From positions 1 to 39,701 of IMG/VR virus record IMGVR_UViG_3300029286_000109: a stretch of 39,701 nt of DNA. The stretch is one strand, 5' to 3'. Origin of the DNA: a virus. Positions 3,759 to 39,699 of the stretch are shown here, piece after piece (position 1 is the stretch's first letter; every line of letters begins with the position of its first letter). A program made the translations under genes and the position numbers. Below the pieces are notes generated by a model that saw only the letters and a program-made list of their open reading frames with translations, was not told the origin of the DNA and searched no databases.

Positions 3759-4500
3759 TTACCCCGCCATCACCATAGACACCGCCGCCGACGAGCTGAA
3801 TCGCCTTCATGCAGGGATTGAGGGGAAGATGCGCTCCACCGTCCAGGACGCTATCCGCGCCGGAGAGATTCTAAGCCAGGTCAAGGAACGGCTACGGCAT
3901 GGGGATTTTTTGCCGTGGATAACTGCTAATTGCAGGTTCAGCAATAAAACCGCCGAGAAATATATAGCGGTCAATAAGTATGCCCGCAAAATCGAATCAA
4001 GTTCGAATTTGCAAGAAGCCTACGCCCAGATAGAAACCCTCGAGGCCCAGGCTAGGCAATCAGAAGAGCAGCGGGCGAGGGCTCGTATTGATGAATTCAA
4101 GCGCACAGGAACGAAGCCTGAGGGCTGGCGGCGCGGGACAGATGACAACATCGCCCAGGACGAGATAGGGCGCGATGCAAGGGTCAAGAAGATGCAGGCC
4201 GATCTACTGGCCGAGCATGAAACGCTTGAACGCTCAGCACCTAAAAAACGAATCAATATAGGCGAATCCATCCAGTCAATAAACGAGCTTGTCGGGGCGA
4301 TTGCCGAGCATACGAAAAAGCGCGTTGCCTTCAAGGAACGTATCCGCATTTCATCGGAGGGCGAAAAGGATGCTTTTATCGATGCCCTTATGGACTACCT
4401 CGACGAGCTGGACGATGACAACCGCCGAATCGAAGCCTGCTACAACATTATAAAAGTCTGCAAAAACATCGCCATTGAAATCCAGGGCTCAAACACATGA
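3751..4500 (+). CDS. DUF3102-family protein
   Basis: A 249-residue protein with a GTG start inside the end of the preceding gene, and GGAG 7 nt upstream. Residues 1-90 match the DUF3102 pattern of phage and plasmid proteins: a helix with AIRAGEILSQVKERLRHGDF, then LPWITANCRFSNKTAEKYIA with an HTH-like end. A glutamate- and arginine-rich coiled segment follows (about 90-170), then a helical C-terminus with many acidic residues. The family is thought to bind DNA. Its exact role is not established. Confidence 0.75.
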   Translation: MDNYPAITIDTAADELNRLHAGIEGKMRSTVQDAIRAGEILSQVKERLRHGDFLPWITANCRFSNKTAEKYIAVNKYARKIESSSNLQEAYAQIETLEAQARQSEEQRARARIDEFKRTGTKPEGWRRGTDDNIAQDEIGRDARVKKMQADLLAEHETLERSAPKKRINIGESIQSINELVGAIAEHTKKRVAFKERIRISSEGEKDAFIDALMDYLDELDDDNRRIEACYNIIKVCKNIAIEIQGSNT

Positions 4501-13237: not shown

Positions 13238-13933
13238 GTGGACGAAGGCCGGAATTCAGATTTCAAGCAAATTAAAATCGCTTGCCGTGGCGCTGAAAGC
13301 CTGCCTATCGAGGCCATTCAAGAACTTCAAGGGAACCTAAAAAAGCGGTCGAAGAAAGATATCGAGCTGATTATTACGTCGATCCATCGATTCGGGTTTT
13401 CGTTTCCATTTTTTGTCTGGCAGAGCGAGGGGAAGAACCTTTGTCTGGACGGACACGGAAGGCTTCAAGCCCTTGCGGAGCTCAGGCGTAGGGGAATTGC
13501 CCTGCCCGCCTTCCCGGTCGTGTTCGTCGATGCCGTCGATTTGCCCGAGGCCAAGCAGAAGTTACTCAGGCTCAACAGTCAGTACGGCTCGATGACAAAG
13601 GCGAGTGTCCTGGAGTTTGCTTCCGGGCTTACACTCGACGAGAGCGAAATACAGCTTCCTAGCGGGTGCTTGAACCTTGAGGAAGGCCAGGGGCGAGAGT
13701 ACGGCGACATTCCCTTCTCCGAGATCCTTGGGGAAGAAAATAACTACATCGTCTTGAAGTTCAATACTGACATTGATTTCCTCAACGCGCAGACCTTATT
13801 CGGCTTACAGTCCGTTAAGGCTTTTTCAACAAGCCAGAACAAGGATAATTCTGATAAAAATTCCCACAAGGGCATAGGACGAGTAGTCGATGGTCCCACA
13901 GCTATCCGGATGATTCAAGGAGAAAGGGCGTGA
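13238..13933 (+). CDS. ParB N-terminal-domain protein
   Basis: A 231-residue protein with a GTG start behind AAAAGGGG. It has the ParB/Srx fold signature: SLPIEAIQELQGNLKKRSKK, a helix, PFFVWQSEGKNLCL, then DGHGRLQAL (D71-G-H-G-R75, the nucleotide-binding GHxR region), followed by VVFVDA and LRLNS. There is no HTH of the plasmid-partition type, so segregation is unlikely. Phage proteins of this kind often occur with terminase or base-modification genes. It overlaps the glycosyltransferase that follows by 4 bp. The biochemical role is not established. Confidence 0.8.
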   Translation: MDEGRNSDFKQIKIACRGAESLPIEAIQELQGNLKKRSKKDIELIITSIHRFGFSFPFFVWQSEGKNLCLDGHGRLQALAELRRRGIALPAFPVVFVDAVDLPEAKQKLLRLNSQYGSMTKASVLEFASGLTLDESEIQLPSGCLNLEEGQGREYGDIPFSEILGEENNYIVLKFNTDIDFLNAQTLFGLQSVKAFSTSQNKDNSDKNSHKGIGRVVDGPTAIRMIQGERA

Positions 13934-14688
13934 ATGTCATTGTGTGTTGCCCTTCGTACCGCCGTCCGAAGGTGGAAACGCTCGATTATTTGCCTTTTTG
14001 TCGAGTGTACGTCGATCACAACGAAGCCTTGGCGTATCGAGAGAAAAACCCCGGTGCTGACATTGTTTCATGCCCGGAAGGTATTCAGGGGAATTTGTGC
14101 CGAGTTAGAAATTATATGCTTGACCGTGAATTTAAGGATGGGGCTGATGTGGTTTGCATTATCGATGATGATATGCGCCTGGTTTCTAGATATGAGCCGG
14201 AGGGATTTTACGGATACAACCGCATCCCGGTAACACAAAGTGAATTTGTGCCCATGATTCAAGAGTATAGCCGGCTGTGTAGGGAGTGGGGATTCTATTT
14301 TTGGGGAATCAACTGCAATTTTGATCCGCTTAGCTATAAGCATTACACACCATTTTCGACCGTCGCATACATTGGCGGGCCTTTTCAGGTTCACCTTAAT
14401 AATCCAATTCGATATGACGAATCTTTGCCTTTGAAAGAAGATTATGACATAAGCCTACAGCATTGCTGTCGTAACCGTGGCGTATTGAGAGTTAATAAAT
14501 ATCATTACCTAGCCAAGCAGGCGACCCAAATAGGCGGGTGTGCAACCTATCGAACCAATGATCGGGAAAAGGAACAATTCGCGCTTTTACAGCGGAAATG
14601 GGGAACGCGGATAGTCAAGACCGATAAGCAGAGCAAGCGAGAATTTGACTTTAATCCGATCCTCTTCATTCCGATCCGAGGGCTTTGA
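13930..14688 (+). CDS. TET-associated-type glycosyltransferase (GT-A fold)
   Basis: A 252-residue protein with a GTG start overlapping the ParB-like gene, and AAGGAG upstream. The N-terminus (NVIVCCPSYRRPKVETLDYL) and the motif VVCIIDDDMRL (D79-D81, the metal- and nucleotide-sugar-binding DxD) follow the pattern of the TAGT family. That family was described computationally with phage TET/JBP oxygenases and ParB proteins in predicted DNA hypermodification systems. No oxygenase is visible in this window. It could glycosylate modified bases or a virion protein. Base use is slightly more AT-rich than in its neighbours. Confidence 0.7.
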   Translation: MNVIVCCPSYRRPKVETLDYLPFCRVYVDHNEALAYREKNPGADIVSCPEGIQGNLCRVRNYMLDREFKDGADVVCIIDDDMRLVSRYEPEGFYGYNRIPVTQSEFVPMIQEYSRLCREWGFYFWGINCNFDPLSYKHYTPFSTVAYIGGPFQVHLNNPIRYDESLPLKEDYDISLQHCCRNRGVLRVNKYHYLAKQATQIGGCATYRTNDREKEQFALLQRKWGTRIVKTDKQSKREFDFNPILFIPIRGL

Positions 14689-20233: not shown

Positions 20234-21427
20234 ATGTCTACTGCGAACGTCTTGTCTTACGCCGAGATATTCCAGGCGGGCCTCGATCTCCAGTTCATGG
20301 AAGTGTCCACGACCGCATGGATGGAGGCGAATGCTTCCCAGGTACGCTATAACGGCGGCTCCAAAGTCCAGATTCCCAAGCTCGTCCTCGAAGGGCTCGG
20401 CACCTATTCCCGATCCTCTGGATTCCCTGACGGCGCGGCTACTCTCACTTGGGAAGAGCGCACCCTCACCCAAGATCGCGGAAAGGAATTCAACCTCGAT
20501 GCGATGGACTACGACGAAACCAATTTCGTCGCCGGTGCCGGAACGCTCCTTGGAGAGTTCCAGCGTACCAAGGTAGTTCCTGAGGTCGACGCTTACCGCT
20601 ACAGCCAGATATTCACCCTCATGAATCCCCAGCTTAAGACCGGTGCGTATACTCCTGCCGCAGGCACGGTGTACACCCAGCTCAAGACTGACATCCGGGC
20701 GATTCAGGACGTGATCGGCGAGAATGAACCCCTCGTCATCGCTATTTCTCATAGCGCTGCGGCCACCCTCGATGCTTCCACTGAAATCACTAAGTCTATC
20801 AATATCACCCAGGTTGACTTTGCGAATGGCGCCCTGGCAACCAAGACCCAGGCCCTCGATGGAATCCCCATGTTCCGCATTCCTTCAGCAAGGTTCAAAA
20901 CTGCTTTCACTTTCTCGGCCACGAATGGCTTTACCGCTGCCGCCACCGCTATGAACATCAACTGGATCATAGCAGCTCGCTCTGCGATCATCGCCATCGT
21001 CAAAACCGATAAAGTGCGCGTGTTCGAGCCTGGCACGAACCAGAGCATGGATGCCTGGAAGATCCAGTACCGCAAATTCCATGATCTGTGGATCAAGGAA
21101 AATGCTTACGATGCCGTGTATGTCTCGTATACCGCCATCGCCGCGCCCGCTTTGGTCACTACGGTTGCCGCTGGCTCTGCTGCTGGAACCAAGTTCACCG
21201 CAACCGCTGGAACAGGGAACACTCTGGCGTACAAGCTGACCGCTGGCGACGTGGCCGCCCCGAATTTCAACGATATTCCCACTGGCCTCACTGCGTACAC
21301 CTCGGCATCGGATATCGCCGCGGCTATCGCTACGAACAGGCTGCACATGTACAAGCTCGACGCCACCGGCCATGTGCTTCAGTACACGGTCGAAACCCTC
21401 GCTACTAACGATATCTACGGCGGCTGA
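20234..21427 (+). CDS. Major capsid protein with C-terminal accessory domain
   Basis: A 397-residue protein. Residues 1-300 are a probable HK97-fold capsid subunit of the A118/Firmicutes type (SYAEIFQAGLDLQFMEVSTT; WEERTLTQDRGKEFNLDAMD; IAARSAIIAIVKTDKVRVFE). Residues about 306-397 form an extra domain (GTGNTLAYKLT, AYTSASDIAA, MYKLDATGHV) that is also found at the end of the tail tube protein. It would be displayed on the capsid surface. The gene has its own upstream promoter and downstream terminator. Confidence 0.88.
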   Translation: MSTANVLSYAEIFQAGLDLQFMEVSTTAWMEANASQVRYNGGSKVQIPKLVLEGLGTYSRSSGFPDGAATLTWEERTLTQDRGKEFNLDAMDYDETNFVAGAGTLLGEFQRTKVVPEVDAYRYSQIFTLMNPQLKTGAYTPAAGTVYTQLKTDIRAIQDVIGENEPLVIAISHSAAATLDASTEITKSINITQVDFANGALATKTQALDGIPMFRIPSARFKTAFTFSATNGFTAAATAMNINWIIAARSAIIAIVKTDKVRVFEPGTNQSMDAWKIQYRKFHDLWIKENAYDAVYVSYTAIAAPALVTTVAAGSAAGTKFTATAGTGNTLAYKLTAGDVAAPNFNDIPTGLTAYTSASDIAAAIATNRLHMYKLDATGHVLQYTVETLATNDIYGG

Positions 21428-21439
21428 GAAACGTCATAA

Positions 21440-21470
21440 AGGCCGGTCCTTAAGCGGGCCGGCCTCTTTT
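21440..21470 (+). terminator. Terminator after major capsid gene
   Basis: AGGCCGG (21440-21446) pairs with CCGGCCT (21459-21465). Three further inner pairs give a 10-bp GC-rich stem, followed by CTTTT. It lies 12 bp after the capsid stop. Partial readthrough would lower expression of the following genes relative to capsid. Confidence 0.8.
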
Positions 21471-21483
21471 AAGGAGCAGATAC

Positions 21484-22842
21484 ATGCTTTACAAAATGAC
21501 GAAAGCGCCAGTATCAAGAATCGTCAATTCCACAGCGCTAGTTGCGACGTACTTGTCGGCTGGATATACCTTCGACGGCATTTGCGATGCAAACGGCGTG
21601 CTTACGCTGGCCGAGGATCTGGATGTCAGGAAAGACCTGGCCGCGAATTGGGCTCTGCTCAATCCCGTCCTCGCCCTCGGAGAGCCTGGTCTTGAAACCG
21701 ATACCCGCATCCTGAAAATGGGCGATGGCATTACGGCATGGAATAGCCTTTCCGGATTGCTTGTCGGCCAAGACGCAACGCAAGATTTTACTACCTTGCT
21801 CGGGGCTACCTTCGCCGATGAAATGGGCGCCGTCGTAGGCGTTGCGGTGAAGGCTCAGGCCACCATCGTATCGGACACTAACCCTGTCAACGTAGCCGCC
21901 ACCGGGAAACTCACCACGGATGCAAGCGTTCCTGTCGATCAGTCCACCGTGACCATCGGCGAGACCGTGTACAAGTTTGTTGCTGGGGCGCCCGCCGCTG
22001 AAGGTGACGTCAAGATCGAGGCGACCGTAGCCGATACGCTCACCAACCTCAAGAATGCCATCGCCGCTGATGCCGACTCCAAGACCGCAGGGAAGCATTT
22101 CTGCGTCGTTGCTCATCCCCTTGTCACCGCCGCTGCCAGCGCCACCGTCTTGACCGTTACCGCGAAATTGCGCGGAGCTCTTGGCAACGCTTACGCATTA
22201 GCAGCTTCCACTGATCCTGCTTCGCACTTCACGGTCAGCGCAGCCACCATGGGAACCGGAGCCGGATGTACGCTCGGTGTAAACCATACGGTCATCGCCG
22301 GAGCAAAGACCTATACCTTCGTGGGCGACACCCCGAACGCAGAAGGCGAAGTTCTGGCTGGTGCGACCGCTGCCGATGCCTTGGATAACTTCAAGAGCGC
22401 AGTCAATGGAGAAGTGGCGACCAAGGGAACAAAACACTTCTGCACGGCCAATGCGACCATTGAAGCTACCACGAATACGAACACGACTCAGCTTCTAGTC
22501 GCTCGAACCGCCGGAGCCCTGGCGAACACCTATCCGGTATCAGGAACAGCGCCGGCGCTCACCGTCCTTGGTGGGAGAGCCTACCTTTCCGGCGGGTACA
22601 ACGTTTCTGCCGCGCAAATCATCAATGCCGTGGCTGGCGTGATACTCGAAAAAGCCGAAGTCTACGCAGTCGCCAGTGGGGCCTCAGTGGTAGGGCTCAC
22701 GGCGGGGCTTCTCTATAAATTCATGGTTCTGACCTATGGGACGACCTACGGATCGGCCTTGGGCGGAACTGGAACCGGGACAAGTATCATGGCACTTACT
22801 GCAAGCGCCAATCTCCACCTGCTCATTGTCCCGATCATGTAA
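21484..22842 (+). CDS. Capsid-associated fibre or decoration protein
   Basis: A 452-residue protein behind AAGGAG. Residues about 55-92 (LALGEPGLETDTRILKMGDG, then ITAWNSL) match the short fibre motif seen in Mtd N-terminal-type and phage_fibre proteins. Two repeats follow, at about 152-250 and 262-365. Each begins TVTIGETVYKFV or HTVIAGAKTYTFV and contains PxAEGxV, a helix (ADxLxNxKxA), KHFC and a final GALxNxY. The C-terminal ~90 residues are glycine- and alanine-rich. The gene follows the capsid, so a head fibre is likely. The same repeats also occur in some tail proteins. Confidence 0.65.
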   Translation: MLYKMTKAPVSRIVNSTALVATYLSAGYTFDGICDANGVLTLAEDLDVRKDLAANWALLNPVLALGEPGLETDTRILKMGDGITAWNSLSGLLVGQDATQDFTTLLGATFADEMGAVVGVAVKAQATIVSDTNPVNVAATGKLTTDASVPVDQSTVTIGETVYKFVAGAPAAEGDVKIEATVADTLTNLKNAIAADADSKTAGKHFCVVAHPLVTAAASATVLTVTAKLRGALGNAYALAASTDPASHFTVSAATMGTGAGCTLGVNHTVIAGAKTYTFVGDTPNAEGEVLAGATAADALDNFKSAVNGEVATKGTKHFCTANATIEATTNTNTTQLLVARTAGALANTYPVSGTAPALTVLGGRAYLSGGYNVSAAQIINAVAGVILEKAEVYAVASGASVVGLTAGLLYKFMVLTYGTTYGSALGGTGTGTSIMALTASANLHLLIVPIM

Positions 22843-32582: not shown

Positions 32583-34892
32583 ATGTCGAGACCAGCATCG
32601 ATCAATTACAGTTCTCCAGGAACATACGCGATAGGTGTCCTTCCCGCCTATGATGACATTTCAGACATGAACGCCAGGGAAGCGGCGCTCGTGGCCGTGT
32701 GCGAGTTTGCCGACCTGTTCAATGAGGCGGCGAGCGCGGCTCCTGCCGATGCCGACCTCATCACATTCTGGGATGTTACCGGATCGGTATTCCAAACGAT
32801 GACGTGGGCAACGATTACGGGACTTTCTTCCTCCGCCCAGGCCGCCGCCGAAGCAACCGCCGCCGGGGCGCTGGCTGGCCATGTGGCCGATCTCGACCCG
32901 CATGCGCAGTACCAAAAAGAGGAGGCCGGAAAAGGGCTCTCAACCAACGATTTCGACGACGCCGCTGAAATAAAGCTCGGAGGCATCGAGGCCGCTGCCG
33001 ATGTCACCGACGAGGCCAATGTCACCGCGATTGCAAACGCCACCGCAGAAGTCGCCGCCGCGCCCGATCATATCTTGGTGCTTGTCGGTGGAGCGTTGAA
33101 ACGCTGGACAAAGGCAGGGTTTGAAGCAGTTGTTAAGGCGCTTTTCCTCGCAACAGTCGAGGCCGGTGCGGAAACCGCTACGCCTGCCGACGCTGATGTG
33201 TTCCCAAGCGTATCAGCCGCCCATGCCGCGCAGAAAAGCACATGGGCACAGGTAAAGGCAGCTCTCGCTATCGCGTTTAAGCATGGCGGAAGTAATGAGC
33301 TTGGTACCGCGACCCCTGCCGCGAATGCGCTGTCGAAAGCTAATGCTTCCGGGAAGCTTGATGCGTGGATAAGTGACGCAACGACCGCTGTAAAGGGTAT
33401 AATGATGCTTGCCACTAGGGGGGTGGAATCCGCCGCAAAGGCAGTCCCTGCCGTCGGAGCAGACGTGGCGGCATTGCTGGCGGCTGGCGGATATTTGACA
33501 GAATTTGATGGCGTAACCTGGGACGAATCGACTGACACCTACACGACTTTTGGTCGCGCCTCTACTCATCCAAATTATCTTAAAGTACAGAAAGGGATGC
33601 GCCGATGCGTGGTAACTGACGCTGGTGTCGTCGCGTATTATCTACATCCTACAAATTCAGCGCTCAAGGAAGACGGTGTCACCGCCTCGGTGCTTGATGG
33701 TACCGATGGTCAAGTGATGGTTGAAATCCCGAAGTTCTATTACTCATATTCATACGTCGGTACTCTGCACACATGGAAAATATCAGAATACCAGCTTCCT
33801 GGCTTTGAACTCCATCCCATGTTTTTACAGGGTACGACAGAAATGTCGAAGGCTTTTATTGGAGCTTACGAGGCATCGTATTATGATGTTTCGGCATCGA
33901 AAGCATCTGGTGGTGCTGGGGTTTTATCACAGGCTGTGTCTTTTGTGGCATTGACAAAAACCATCACTTCGACAGCTTCTACGGCACCGTTCAAAAATTG
34001 CGTGATTGGCTCAAAAATGGTCATCACAGGGACGACGCTCAATAATGCAACGGTGACGGTGGCTACGGTTTCCGATCAAAGCATTACCATAGACGAGGTG
34101 ATTACCGATGAGACAGCAGCTAGCGCCTCGGTGCTCCCTCAGGTTGACACTACTGCCACGACAGGCGACAAGCTCTCCTCGGTATCGGGTCTTGCTCCGC
34201 TTACCTATAAAACAAGGGCGGGATTCAGACAGCTTGCCAAGAATAGGGGGGCAGGATGGACACAGCAGACTTACGACATGGCGTTTGCTGTGCAGATTTT
34301 GATCCTTGTTGAATATGGAAGTTTCTATTCTCAAAATAAAATTGGCGCGGGAATTACTAATGTAAGCAACTGGCTTGCATATAATAATTACTTCCCTATC
34401 GCTAAAGCTGGAAACTCAAACGCTATTGGAAACGTGACAGGGAACAACGCAGGGGCAACAGCCGCCGCCACCGAGGAATCGAAATACTTATCATATCGAG
34501 GTATTGAAAATTTCTTCGGGCACGTCTGGAAGTGGGTTGATGGATTTAACATTAACGCTAATGCGGCCTATGTTAATAACACAATCGCAACGATGGCCGA
34601 CGATACAGCGTCAGGCTATACGTTGCTCGGGTCGATGCCAGCTGCAAATGGATACATCAGCACATTGCTGGCAATAACAAGGGGGTTTTTACCGAAAGCC
34701 GTTGGTTCTCCTGCCGATGGTTCACATAAAATAACTGACTATTATTATCAGTCAACCGCCTGGCGGGTGGCTTCGCTCGGGGGTAGTTCGGCTGATGGGG
34801 CTAATGCGGGGGCTTGGTCTTGGTATTGCAATGCTTCCTCGGCCTATGCGGATCAGGATTTCGGCGCTCGGGTTGGTTTATTAAAGCAGTAA
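32583..34892 (+). CDS. DGR target: receptor-binding tail protein with variable C-terminus
   Basis: A 769-residue protein behind AAGGAG. An N-terminal tail-attachment part and an alanine-rich shaft (about 70-300) precede a beta-rich region. From about residue 530 comes a C-type-lectin-like domain typical of DGR targets (RAGFRQLAKNRGAGWTQQTY; YRGIENFFGHVWKWVDGFN). The last 45 residues (WRVASLGGSSADGANAG, then AWSWYCN) are encoded by VR. The fixed W, G and C residues keep the fold, while codons that read AAT in TR are A, D, S, Y or N here. It is predicted to be the host receptor binder. Confidence 0.93.
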   Translation: MSRPASINYSSPGTYAIGVLPAYDDISDMNAREAALVAVCEFADLFNEAASAAPADADLITFWDVTGSVFQTMTWATITGLSSSAQAAAEATAAGALAGHVADLDPHAQYQKEEAGKGLSTNDFDDAAEIKLGGIEAAADVTDEANVTAIANATAEVAAAPDHILVLVGGALKRWTKAGFEAVVKALFLATVEAGAETATPADADVFPSVSAAHAAQKSTWAQVKAALAIAFKHGGSNELGTATPAANALSKANASGKLDAWISDATTAVKGIMMLATRGVESAAKAVPAVGADVAALLAAGGYLTEFDGVTWDESTDTYTTFGRASTHPNYLKVQKGMRRCVVTDAGVVAYYLHPTNSALKEDGVTASVLDGTDGQVMVEIPKFYYSYSYVGTLHTWKISEYQLPGFELHPMFLQGTTEMSKAFIGAYEASYYDVSASKASGGAGVLSQAVSFVALTKTITSTASTAPFKNCVIGSKMVITGTTLNNATVTVATVSDQSITIDEVITDETAASASVLPQVDTTATTGDKLSSVSGLAPLTYKTRAGFRQLAKNRGAGWTQQTYDMAFAVQILILVEYGSFYSQNKIGAGITNVSNWLAYNNYFPIAKAGNSNAIGNVTGNNAGATAAATEESKYLSYRGIENFFGHVWKWVDGFNINANAAYVNNTIATMADDTASGYTLLGSMPAANGYISTLLAITRGFLPKAVGSPADGSHKITDYYYQSTAWRVASLGGSSADGANAGAWSWYCNASSAYADQDFGARVGLLKQ
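34757..34875 (+). repeat. VR: DGR variable repeat (VR)
   Basis: A 119-bp segment ending 14 bp before the target's stop codon. It aligns without gaps to TR at 34921-35039. 26 positions differ, every one an adenine in TR, and no other base differs. After the last aligned base VR has an extra G relative to TR, suggesting different initiation-of-homing ends (IMH and IMH*). Encodes about residues 725-764. Confidence 0.97.
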
Positions 34893-34920
34893 TGTAAATT
34901 TTAAGGGACTATGGATTGAG

Positions 34921-35039
34921 CGCATAGCAGGTAGCTAAACTCGGAGGTAATTCGAATAATGGAGCTAATGCAGGGACTTGGTATTGGAATTGCAATAATT
35001 CCTCAGCCAATGCGAATCAGAATATCAGCGCTCAGGTTG
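34921..35039 (+). repeat. TR: DGR template repeat (TR)
   Basis: A 119-bp template containing 37 adenines. Read in the VR frame it has ten AAT codons, the favoured substrate for making many amino acids, and a TAG that becomes TGG in VR. It begins 45 bp after VR and ends 125 bp before the reverse transcriptase. The transcript would be copied with errors at A and transferred to VR. Confidence 0.97.
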
Positions 35040-35164
35040 TTTAATAGTGTTTTCTTGCTTTTATCCATAGTTCCTCACCTCTTGGTGAAAAATAACAATT
35101 CCAAAATACGTGCTGGTAGGGCTAGACCGAACGCTCGTTGGAGAAATAAACAAAAGGGCTTTGT
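35040..35164 (+). ncRNA. TR-RT spacer RNA
   Basis: A 125-bp AT-rich non-coding spacer between TR and RT. In the Bordetella phage DGR, spacer RNA downstream of TR is needed to prime and bind the RT complex. This spacer is of comparable length and includes a small hairpin TCACC-TCTT-GGTGA (about 35075-35088). The functional role is inferred. Confidence 0.5.
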
Positions 35165-36205
35165 ATGAAACGCTTCGGGAATCTTTACGACAAAATATAT
35201 GATCTCGAAAATATACGCTTAGCCCACAAAAACGCAAGAAAACACAAAACTAAATATAAAGAAGTCAGAATGGTTGATAAAAATCCAGAGTTTTATTTTA
35301 AGCAAATACAGGACATGCTAAAAAATAAAACCTTCAGGAATGGCGAATATAGCATATTTACAAGGAAGTTTTATTCAAAAGAGCGTGTCATCTATAAGCT
35401 TCCATATTTTTCAGATAGAATTATTCATCATTGCATCTTGCAGGTTATAGGCCCGATATGGAATTCGGTATTTATAAGAAATACTTTTTCATCAATCAAG
35501 AATCGCGGTATAAAAGATGCTGTATTGAGAATAAAGAAAACTTTGCATGAACATCCTGATCTTGACTATTGTCTTAAAATTGACATAAAGAAATTTTATC
35601 CATCAGTAAATCATGATATCTTGAAAGGTATAATCGCAAAAAAAATTAAGGACAAAGATCTTTTATGGCTATTGAATGAAATAATAGATTCGGCGAGCGG
35701 TGTTCCTATTGGTAACTATTTATCGCAGTATTTTGGAAATTTATACTTGTCGTATTTCGATCATTACTCAAAGGAAATATTAAAAGCAAAATACTACTAT
35801 CGTTATTGTGACGATATTGTCGTACTGAGCAATAGTAAAGAAAAGCTTCGAGAATTACTTAAGGCTATGCGGATTAAGGTTGACCCGCTTCGAGTAACAA
35901 TAAAAGAAAATTGGCAAATATTCCCCATTGACAAACGAGGGATTGATTTTCTTGGTTATGTATTTTTCAAGAATCATATTCTTATTCGAAAAGCGATTAA
36001 ACAGAGATTCATCAAAAACCTTATAAAAATAGCTAAATCAGACATTCTTCCTTCTACGAAAGTAACGAGCGGCTCAATGAGTTTTGTCGGTTGGATGAAA
36101 TTGGCAAATACTAGAAATTTGGTAAAAAAATACTTCACGAAGAATGTCCAATCATTAGTGATTAAATACGGAGTTTCTAAAAGGAGTGTTAAAAATGCTG
36201 CATAA
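35165..36205 (+). CDS. rt: DGR reverse transcriptase
   Basis: A 346-residue enzyme. Motif A has D140 in LKIDIKKFYPSVNH. The domain-4 motif GVPIGNYLSQ (179-188) with SQ is typical of DGR and related RTs. Motif C is YCDD (214-217), where most DGR RTs have YMDD. A C-terminal thumb (about 240-346) follows, with GIDFLGYVFFK. It copies TR RNA with adenine misincorporation. The gene is far more AT-rich than the phage around it. No avd-like gene is adjacent. Confidence 0.95.
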   Translation: MKRFGNLYDKIYDLENIRLAHKNARKHKTKYKEVRMVDKNPEFYFKQIQDMLKNKTFRNGEYSIFTRKFYSKERVIYKLPYFSDRIIHHCILQVIGPIWNSVFIRNTFSSIKNRGIKDAVLRIKKTLHEHPDLDYCLKIDIKKFYPSVNHDILKGIIAKKIKDKDLLWLLNEIIDSASGVPIGNYLSQYFGNLYLSYFDHYSKEILKAKYYYRYCDDIVVLSNSKEKLRELLKAMRIKVDPLRVTIKENWQIFPIDKRGIDFLGYVFFKNHILIRKAIKQRFIKNLIKIAKSDILPSTKVTSGSMSFVGWMKLANTRNLVKKYFTKNVQSLVIKYGVSKRSVKNAA

Positions 36206-36530
36206 CAGCTCTGCTGATTTTGTGCCGGCTCTCGTAGTACAGACCAATGGGATGTATCAGGTGCGTTTTAATGTAACAGAGCGCACTTTCGATGACCAAG
36301 GCATCGCGCGCCAAGCGTGGGATTACGAGTATGCCGAAACGGCAACGCTCGATTATGGGGCTTTTGTTGATGCGATTATCGGAACGCATTATGGCAAAGA
36401 TGCTGAAATTGCAATGCTTAATAAAGCATTTGCCGATCCTGCTGATATAGATTATGCCGAATACAATGCCTTCCGCGCAGAGGCAAAGATAGCAGCCAAA
36501 GCAGCGATTGAATGGTGGGGATCCTGCTAA
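36186..36530 (+). CDS. Small protein after DGR, possible fibre accessory
   Basis: A 114-residue protein overlapping the RT end by 20 bp, with AAGGAG 8 nt upstream. The sequence (YQVRFNVTERTFDDQGIARQ; DYGAFVDAIIGTHYGKDAEI; AEYNAFRAEAKIAAKAAIEW) resembles small proteins that follow tail fibre genes. It is too unlike Avd (no basic four-helix pattern) to be called one. A fibre chaperone or accessory role is inferred. Confidence 0.6.
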   Translation: MLKMLHNSSADFVPALVVQTNGMYQVRFNVTERTFDDQGIARQAWDYEYAETATLDYGAFVDAIIGTHYGKDAEIAMLNKAFADPADIDYAEYNAFRAEAKIAAKAAIEWWGSC

Positions 36531-38496: not shown

Positions 38497-39651
38497 ATGC
38501 CAAGAACAAAACAGCCTATCCGCGCTGAGCGAGTATCGCCACGCGATCACCGCTTCCGCGTCTCTTTTCTGGGCTTTGATGGAACCTTCTTTTCCCCTTA
38601 CGAAGACCGTGACCGGGCGATTGCCTGGGCGGAAAGGAACCGGGAAGCCCTTCTATCTACTCGATCCAAGAGCCATAGTTTCCAGGAACTCTCGCAGGGC
38701 TTCTTTGGCCGTGGCGGCGCCTGGGATAAGGATCAGGAAAGCATGGGATGGACGAGAACCGACGCCACACTCTCTATCTATTCCGGATTCCTTAAAAACA
38801 ATTTCCTTCTACTGTTCGGGGATTATGACATCAGGCTCATCGATGCCCCGATGCTCAAGCTCGCCCTGGCTGGCTTTATGAAGATCAACGGCAAGCCTTA
38901 TGCCAGAGGGACGCGAAATAAAATGCGGTATGCCCTCGGCCTCATGTTCGATTATTGGCTATCGGTAGGGTTGCTTCATGGATCAAATCCTGTCGGCCTC
39001 GTCGGGAAGTATAACAAGGCCCCTGAGAAGCCTAGAAGCGCCCTGCCTCGCGATGTTCTCCTGAAGCTCTGTCCGAAGTCTCACCCAGCCGCGGTAAAGC
39101 TCTACGGATCGTCGATGTATGTCTGCTTCTTTTTCTGCATGAATGACACCGGGGCGCGTCCAGGTGAACTGCGGGCGCTGCGCTGGGGGCAGATCGACTT
39201 TGATAAAAGGTTCGTCGCCATAAGGACGGCGATCGAGGCGGGGAAAAGTGACAAGGTTAAGGGAACAAAGACGAACATCGTCCGCCCTGCATATTTTTCC
39301 GAGAGGACGATTCAGGAATTGCGGATCTGGCGGGAGGAAACACACCTCCCTGACGATATGGATTTTATCTTTGTCGCGCCGCACCGCAGAAAGCCGGTAT
39401 CGCAAGGCCCGACCGAAAACGCCTTCAAGCGCGCGCTGGTTCAGCTGGGCTATGAAGGCAAGGACTGGACGCCCTACTACATCCGGCACAGCTTCGGGAC
39501 GTACAAGATGGAGATACTAGAGCAGCCGGATATCGAGAAGCTCATGGGACACGCATCGAGCGTGACAACGAAGGGGTATCAGCATCCCGACGATGAGACG
39601 GTGAGGCTCTCGGGGGAAGGGATACAGAAGAAGCTTGACGATGCCCGGTAA
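38497..39651 (+). CDS. int: Tyrosine-recombinase integrase
   Basis: A 384-residue integrase. I start at MPRTKQPIRAERVS. An ATG 48 bp upstream is possible, but its extra residues show no domain. The N-terminal arm-binding part is followed by a SAM-like core-binding domain (about 80-175). Catalytic residues are R221 (TGARPGEL), a lysine in KGTKT, R330 and H331 (YYIRHSFGT), H352 (MGHAS) and nucleophile Y361 (TKGYQHP). The usual first H of HxxR is Y327, a known variant. The last 31 codons lie in the att repeat. No strong Shine-Dalgarno precedes it. Confidence 0.92.
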   Translation: MPRTKQPIRAERVSPRDHRFRVSFLGFDGTFFSPYEDRDRAIAWAERNREALLSTRSKSHSFQELSQGFFGRGGAWDKDQESMGWTRTDATLSIYSGFLKNNFLLLFGDYDIRLIDAPMLKLALAGFMKINGKPYARGTRNKMRYALGLMFDYWLSVGLLHGSNPVGLVGKYNKAPEKPRSALPRDVLLKLCPKSHPAAVKLYGSSMYVCFFFCMNDTGARPGELRALRWGQIDFDKRFVAIRTAIEAGKSDKVKGTKTNIVRPAYFSERTIQELRIWREETHLPDDMDFIFVAPHRRKPVSQGPTENAFKRALVQLGYEGKDWTPYYIRHSFGTYKMEILEQPDIEKLMGHASSVTTKGYQHPDDETVRLSGEGIQKKLDDAR

Positions 39652-39699
39652 TTACCCCAAAAGCCGGGTCGCGCCTTGCGCCCGAATAGACTTCTGACG
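39556..39699. repeat. attR: Right copy of terminal direct repeat (probable attR)
   Basis: Matches 1-144 at 142 of 144 positions. It starts inside the integrase, before the catalytic tyrosine, and extends 48 bp past the stop. The two mismatches sit near the distal end, consistent with a host-derived arm beyond the crossover. The short inverted pair CCCGG...CCGGG in the downstream part may be a weak integrase terminator. Confidence 0.7.

Follow-up and report, generated by a model that had tools for sequence, protein, structure and literature searches.

A complete Avd-less diversity-generating retroelement with a structured spacer RNA, very probably diversifying the tip of a tail protein in a temperate phage

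Examination of the IMG/VR virus record IMGVR_UViG_3300029286_000109 (positions 1 to 39,701; this whole stretch of 39,701 nucleotides is called the window below) reveals a locus that we read, with a probability of about 95%, as a complete avd-less diversity-generating retroelement (DGR) of a temperate phage, which diversifies the C-type-lectin-like tip of a tail protein. DGRs are a known device built on an error-prone reverse transcriptase (RT), which in this virus would rewrite the tip of the host-binding protein. A preliminary description of this DNA had proposed a complete DGR, and the parts on which it relied, namely a target gene with its variable repeat (VR), a template repeat (TR) and an RT, were all recovered; the open reading frames (ORFs) of both target and RT are open and intact in the window. 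The components, including candidate segments for the initiation of mutagenic homing (IMH, and its TR counterpart IMH*), and the adjoining ORF are:

32583..34892, + strand: DGR target ORF, 769 aa, PHROG 5302 tail protein, putative receptor-binding protein
34757..34875, + strand: VR, target codons 725-765, with 26 of 119 positions unlike the TR, all at TR adenines
34861..34875, + strand: candidate IMH segment at the VR 3' end, where the differences from the TR look fixed
34921..35039, + strand: TR, non-coding; read in the VR frame it has ten AAT codons and a single TAG
35025..35039, + strand: IMH* candidate at the TR 3' end, positional counterpart of 34861-34875
35071..35154, + strand: structured spacer RNA between TR and RT, by its match to Rfam RT-17 (RF03020) and by covariation
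35165..36205, + strand: DGR RT, 346 aa, by RVT_1, PHROG 1423, motifs, closest structure (8ub7) and tree
36186..36530, + strand: small conserved ORF overlapping the RT end, a probable companion of the tail protein and not part of the DGR

The VR and TR align over 119 bp without a gap, and their 26 differences (17 A>G, 5 A>C and 4 A>T) fall on 26 of the 37 adenines of the TR and on none of its 82 other bases, a distribution with a chance probability of about 7e-18. The two repeats are separated by only 45 bp, and the VR ends 14 bases ahead of the stop codon of the target. The coordinates of both repeats and the count of adenine-only differences given in the preliminary description proved exact on recounting, as did the ten AAT codons of the TR in the VR frame and the conversion of a TAG in the TR (34925-34927) into TGG, which lies at codon 727 of the target. 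Stop codons of the TR in the VR frame are read as Trp or Leu in the VR for the TRs of the window and of two related loci (L003 and L063). An ORF at 34959-35168 was rejected as a gene, as it overlaps the TR and its matches in other loci are confined to TR or VR sequence. The search for promoter-like sites gave none above chance.

RTs related to that of the window (35-100% identity) are encoded by 70 viral loci, and in most of these a scan for TR/VR pairs found a TR ahead of the RT, paired with a VR that differs from it at adenines only. Six groups of these relatives have clearly distinct VRs, which differ at 12-20 TR adenines and at 0-4 of the remaining VR positions, and their flanks and TRs are nearly constant while the VRs vary. 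The changes at TR adenines number 20 in L012/L013, 19 in L033/L035 (with 1 change in 1487 bases outside the VR) and 12 in L024/L032 (with 1 non-A change in the VR and 0 outside); L012/L013, L033/L035 and L052-L055 have no change at non-A VR positions. The test set beforehand, namely that VR variation between relatives should be confined to TR adenines, was thus passed almost entirely, most plainly in L052/L054, where all 14 VR changes are at TR adenines and 0 are found in 2212 other bases. Some relatives carry unusual arrangements: L021 (69-523) and L043 (5202-5700) have a single TR for two VRs, which lie in a tandem pair of small ORFs unlike tail proteins. In L067 the members of a repeat pair (1098-1208 and 2554-2664) differ at only 3 of 24 adenines, and an AAT/AAC-rich template is lacking; the pair possibly consists of two VRs.

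The RT matches RVT_1 (5.2e-19) and the PHROG 1423 reverse transcriptase family (1.7e-102), keeps the catalytic YCDD and carries the motif IGNYLSQ, where six group II control RTs have QGxxxSP instead. Its closest solved structure is 8ub7 ('Reverse transcriptase', 7e-33), which we take to belong to the BPP-1 bRT series, a view that its length of 328 aa, the same as that of BPP-1 bRT, fits; group II-like and other enzyme structures match the window RT at 1.4e-16 or weaker. In a tree of 61 sequences the group II RTs constitute one side of a branch with an SH-aLRT value of 100, and the window RT falls with a support of 89 in a 51-row set that also holds the RTs of the crAssphage LMMB DGR, Perkons and E. 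eligens. The earlier assignment of this RT to the DGR type is therefore upheld by motifs and structure, and in the phylogenetic test set beforehand the enzyme clusters with documented DGR RTs and apart from those of group II. These data also bear on the notion that the locus is no DGR at all, but an ordinary diverged tandem repeat lying beside an unrelated RT from a group II intron or a defence system. Its best NCBIfam model is indeed a group II RT, at 102.8 bits against a cut-off of 300, but the DGR motifs, the closest structure, the tree placement, the 0 of 82 non-adenine positions changed and the spacer RNA in its expected place all oppose the notion, and the adenine-only VR variation seen across independent loci in effect refutes it, so that we assign it a negligible probability.

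The target is a PHROG 5302 tail protein (1.1e-83) whose C-terminal half (aa ~310-769) is shared with other DGR targets, and whose last ~245 aa are predicted to be C-type-lectin-like. An alignment of 28 sequences of the C-terminal part was used for an AlphaFold model of aa 300-769 (mean pLDDT 76.6, pTM 0.79). Foldseek gives three TaqVP chains (best 8.5e-9) as the only PDB matches at E <= 0.001; Mtd variants and then formylglycine-generating enzyme follow in the list, and TaqVP is also matched by sequence profile (8.6e-10). The preliminary claim of a C-type-lectin-like end is borne out by this predicted fold, and the VR thus has the placement typical of DGRs, at the 3' end of a target gene with a predicted C-type-lectin fold. 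TaqVP, the variable protein of a Thermus aquaticus DGR (5vf4), is the best fold match to the C-terminal half of the target; it differs in having only 13% identity over the fold alignment and in not being, per its record, a phage tail protein. Among fold matches to viral models, the named ones are mostly tail collar fibre proteins and include proteins of crAss-like phages. Pfam gave no match on the target and FGE-sulfatase was found in only 1 of the 28 members of its alignment, and a search with the target in viral contigs recovered only the same phage. From its family, its position in the genome and its fold, we infer that the target binds a host receptor.

The relatives further delimit the stretch that is actually rewritten. 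In the six groups with distinct VRs only 1 of 24 adenines lying 3' of a shared AATATC varies between VRs, versus 117 of 184 upstream of it (p = 1e-8), although most of these 3' adenines differ from the TR. Such a fixed 3' edge is consistent with the expectation for IMH and IMH*, for which 34861-34875 and 35025-35039 are put forward as candidate segments only. In several groups the first few adenines of the 5' edge do not vary either, and by analogy codons 727-728 and 761-763 of the window are probably fixed rather than mutagenic. The TAG of the TR at codon 727 sits within this fixed 5' edge; both the TAG and its replacement by TGG (Trp) recur in L003, whose RT is only 57% identical to that of the window, which fits a segment that is rarely copied. 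At most 19 residues, counting codons wholly inside the VR, are variable via TR adenines, and since the adenine mismatches at the edges are fixed in relatives, those really diversified probably number ~15 (codons 731-760). The 20 or more variable residues expected in the preliminary description are hence too many.

Several observations weigh against a working DGR with this target. VRs of some relatives differ at up to 4 non-adenine positions; a hairpin downstream of the VR like that of BPP-1 was not found (z = 0.66); the target reaches modest TM-scores (0.4-0.5) against solved proteins, and the prediction is poor for an insert at aa ~445-523; and the base of the RT tree, comprising BPP-1, Nostoc and two other RTs, lacks resolved branching. 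Finally, L002, the only other copy of the window phage found, is identical to it including the VR, and for this reason the activity of the window element itself is something that we infer. The same identity would be expected if the DGR were now a fossil in this phage, its parts remaining after retrohoming had ceased. The guanine-plus-cytosine (GC) content of the RT gene could be cited to the same effect: at 31.8% it is 21 points lower than the 53.0% found elsewhere in the phage, a contrast larger than in any other of the 69 loci compared, which suggests a recent import, and a recent import may not be adapted. However, the RT keeps YCDD and IGNYLSQ and, like the target, the TR and the spacer RNA, is intact; the VR, which departs from the TR at 26 adenines, remains open at the position of the TAG in the TR; and the two identical records may be one population. 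We thus consider a fossil state quite improbable and the DGR of the window very likely functional.

Between the TR and the RT lies a structured RNA that the preliminary description did not mention. The segment 35071-35154 matches Rfam RT-17 (RF03020) with 41.6 bits (cut-off 40.4) and RT-18 (RF03021) with 30.2 bits, below the cut-off of 41.3; among the other loci tested, five likewise have an RT-17 match at or above the cut-off in this position, and the spacer of BPP-1 is a different Rfam family, Phage_DGR. The window RNA folds into a hairpin (35076-35087, CACC/GGUG) and a helix (35109-35137) with a U.U mismatch and an inner UGGUAG...CGAA loop. An alignment of 36 loci supports the 4-bp hairpin and the helix, in which the U.U mismatch is common, as well as an inner 2-bp helix enclosing a GGUAG...GAA loop that is strongly conserved. 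Across it, compensatory changes are found in 10 of 10 pairs, 96.1% of cells pair (73.2% when shuffled) and the covariation score is 0.740 (0.274 when shuffled), which is reached by 0 of 500 shuffles and compares with at most 0.153 for slid versions; helix 1 is biased towards pairing in these figures, since the selection of sequences relied in part on searching for the first hairpin, a search in which helices 2 and 3 played no part. An alternative inner GGU/ACC pairing was rejected for its poor covariation, columns 57-58/84-85 covarying instead. A covariance model (R1) built from the aligned loci scores 66.3 bits on the window, which is one of its own rows, and recognizes avd-less DGRs outside the model, namely those of LMMB (58.8 bits), cr52 (50.1), Perkons (47.1) and E. 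eligens (30.8); it has no match in BPP-1 or Nostoc, the two Avd-type DGRs tested, nor in group II loci or Methanosarcina virus MetMV. One relative, L065, has a second strong copy (4244-4332, 48 bits) ~1.9 kb after the RT, with no second RT match in the locus.

In BPP-1 the spacer recruits the bRT-Avd complex, and an adenine within it primes complementary DNA (cDNA) synthesis (PMC12875486). Given that the window RNA occupies the same slot, beginning 31 nt after the TR and lying between TR and RT across the aligned loci, we propose that it is probably the avd-less counterpart of the BPP-1 spacer RNA, with the same role carried out without Avd. Its position directly upstream of the RT start codon, and the Rfam label of RT-17 as merely an RT-associated RNA, would also suit a leader element that regulates translation of the RT, with the DGR itself standing as described; the correspondence with the BPP-1 spacer makes this unlikely in our estimation. 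Extending the role as template-RNA spacer to avd-less DGRs generally, the RT-17/RT-18-type RNA may, through its hairpin and internal-loop helix (UGGUAG/CGAA), replace Avd and the larger BPP-1 spacer fold in recognition and priming, so that the RT works without Avd; we lean slightly towards this idea. Rfam describes these families only as RT-17 and RT-18 RNA, and here they are placed as the TR-RT spacer of avd-less DGRs. 'RT-17 RNA' was not mentioned in the literature searched, which excluded the presumed defining paper of RT-17, and the link to DGRs is accordingly not claimed as new.

Avd was not found with the model NF033474 in the window or in nine related records, while the same model detected the positive controls BPP-1 (2.2e-32) and the Nostoc plasmid DGR (2.6e-42). 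The DGR of crAssphage LMMB is avd-less, has the order target-TR-RT and belongs to RT lineage 3 (PMC7290462). Because no Avd was found, the window DGR is assigned to the crAssphage LMMB type, which it appears to match in gene order, lack of avd and RT relationship (44% identity to the LMMB RT, in the same 51-row set). The two share the order target-VR-TR-RT, a tail-collar fibre target and, as judged by R1, the same spacer RNA. They differ in that LMMB is a 98-kb crAss-like phage whereas the window is a 39.7-kb record with an integrase, in the N-termini of the targets, which are unlike, and in the GC contrast of the RT module, which is much stronger in the window. With BPP-1 (mtd-avd-TR-brt) the window shares adenine-specific TR/VR differences, a C-type-lectin-like tail protein, an RT adjoining the TR and a structured spacer RNA between these. 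In contrast, BPP-1 has Avd, its RT is only distantly related and its spacer is Phage_DGR (104.7 bits); in the window neither Avd nor Phage_DGR (RF03022) was detected, and the RNA match is to RT-17 instead.

On the model of BPP-1, the TR-spacer region would be transcribed and the structured RNA at 35071-35154 would recruit the RT, which would copy the TR to cDNA from near the TR 3' end, misincorporating opposite adenines. With the IMH-like 3' end as its anchor, the cDNA would then take the place of the VR in the 3'-terminal part of the tail-protein gene; priming and retrohoming are again modelled on BPP-1, as is receptor binding. Up to 19, and probably ~15, residues would be changed in this way in the C-type-lectin-like tip that recognises the host. 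A DGR acting on a phage host-binding protein repeats a known theme, and the window element, though clear-cut, is an ordinary representative of a well-described kind. Its value lies in being a clean, complete and small avd-less example, whose relatives show natural adenine-only variation, and in the lead that ties an orphan RNA family to cDNA priming in avd-less DGRs, a step for which current understanding comes mainly from the Avd-dependent BPP-1 system. If RT-17/RT-18-type RNA does serve as the avd-less spacer, an orphan Rfam family would become a defined part of a large DGR branch.

The genes flanking the TR-spacer-RT module are adjacent in MetMV (L098 7905-9833), where 21 bp separate a homologue of the target C-terminus (47%) from a downstream homologue of ORF 36186-36530 (33-35%; 59.7 bits and 2.6e-14 by sensitive tblastn), and no RT is detectable. 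The module in the window is placed exactly between these two genes; it was either gained in the ancestor of the window phage or lost in MetMV, and both fit. Homologues of ORF 36186-36530 also follow the RT in L003, L005-L007, L010 and L011. As MetMV carries one without a detectable RT, its product was rejected as an Avd substitute and is a probable companion of the tail protein. An archaeal host, hinted at by the MetMV tail-protein match, found no support, as only the tail protein and its small neighbour match MetMV; the head genes of the window resemble those of phages of Bacillota and Stenotrophomonas.

Elsewhere, the window ends carry a 126-bp perfect direct repeat (1-126 and 39556-39681), and the last 20 bases nearly repeat as well, with 3 mismatches. 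L002 crosses this junction, which means either a circular genome or an att site at the junction, where the integrase has its 3' end. The ORF at 13930-14688 encodes a PHROG 842 glucosyltransferase (beta-glucosyl-HMC-alpha-glucosyltransferase type) and is a possible DNA or surface modification gene. In the region 20234-22842, the major head protein extends ~100 C-terminal residues past the part that was matched; the protein after it, of 452 aa, has tail-fibre-like matches at its N-terminus and is possibly a decoration protein.

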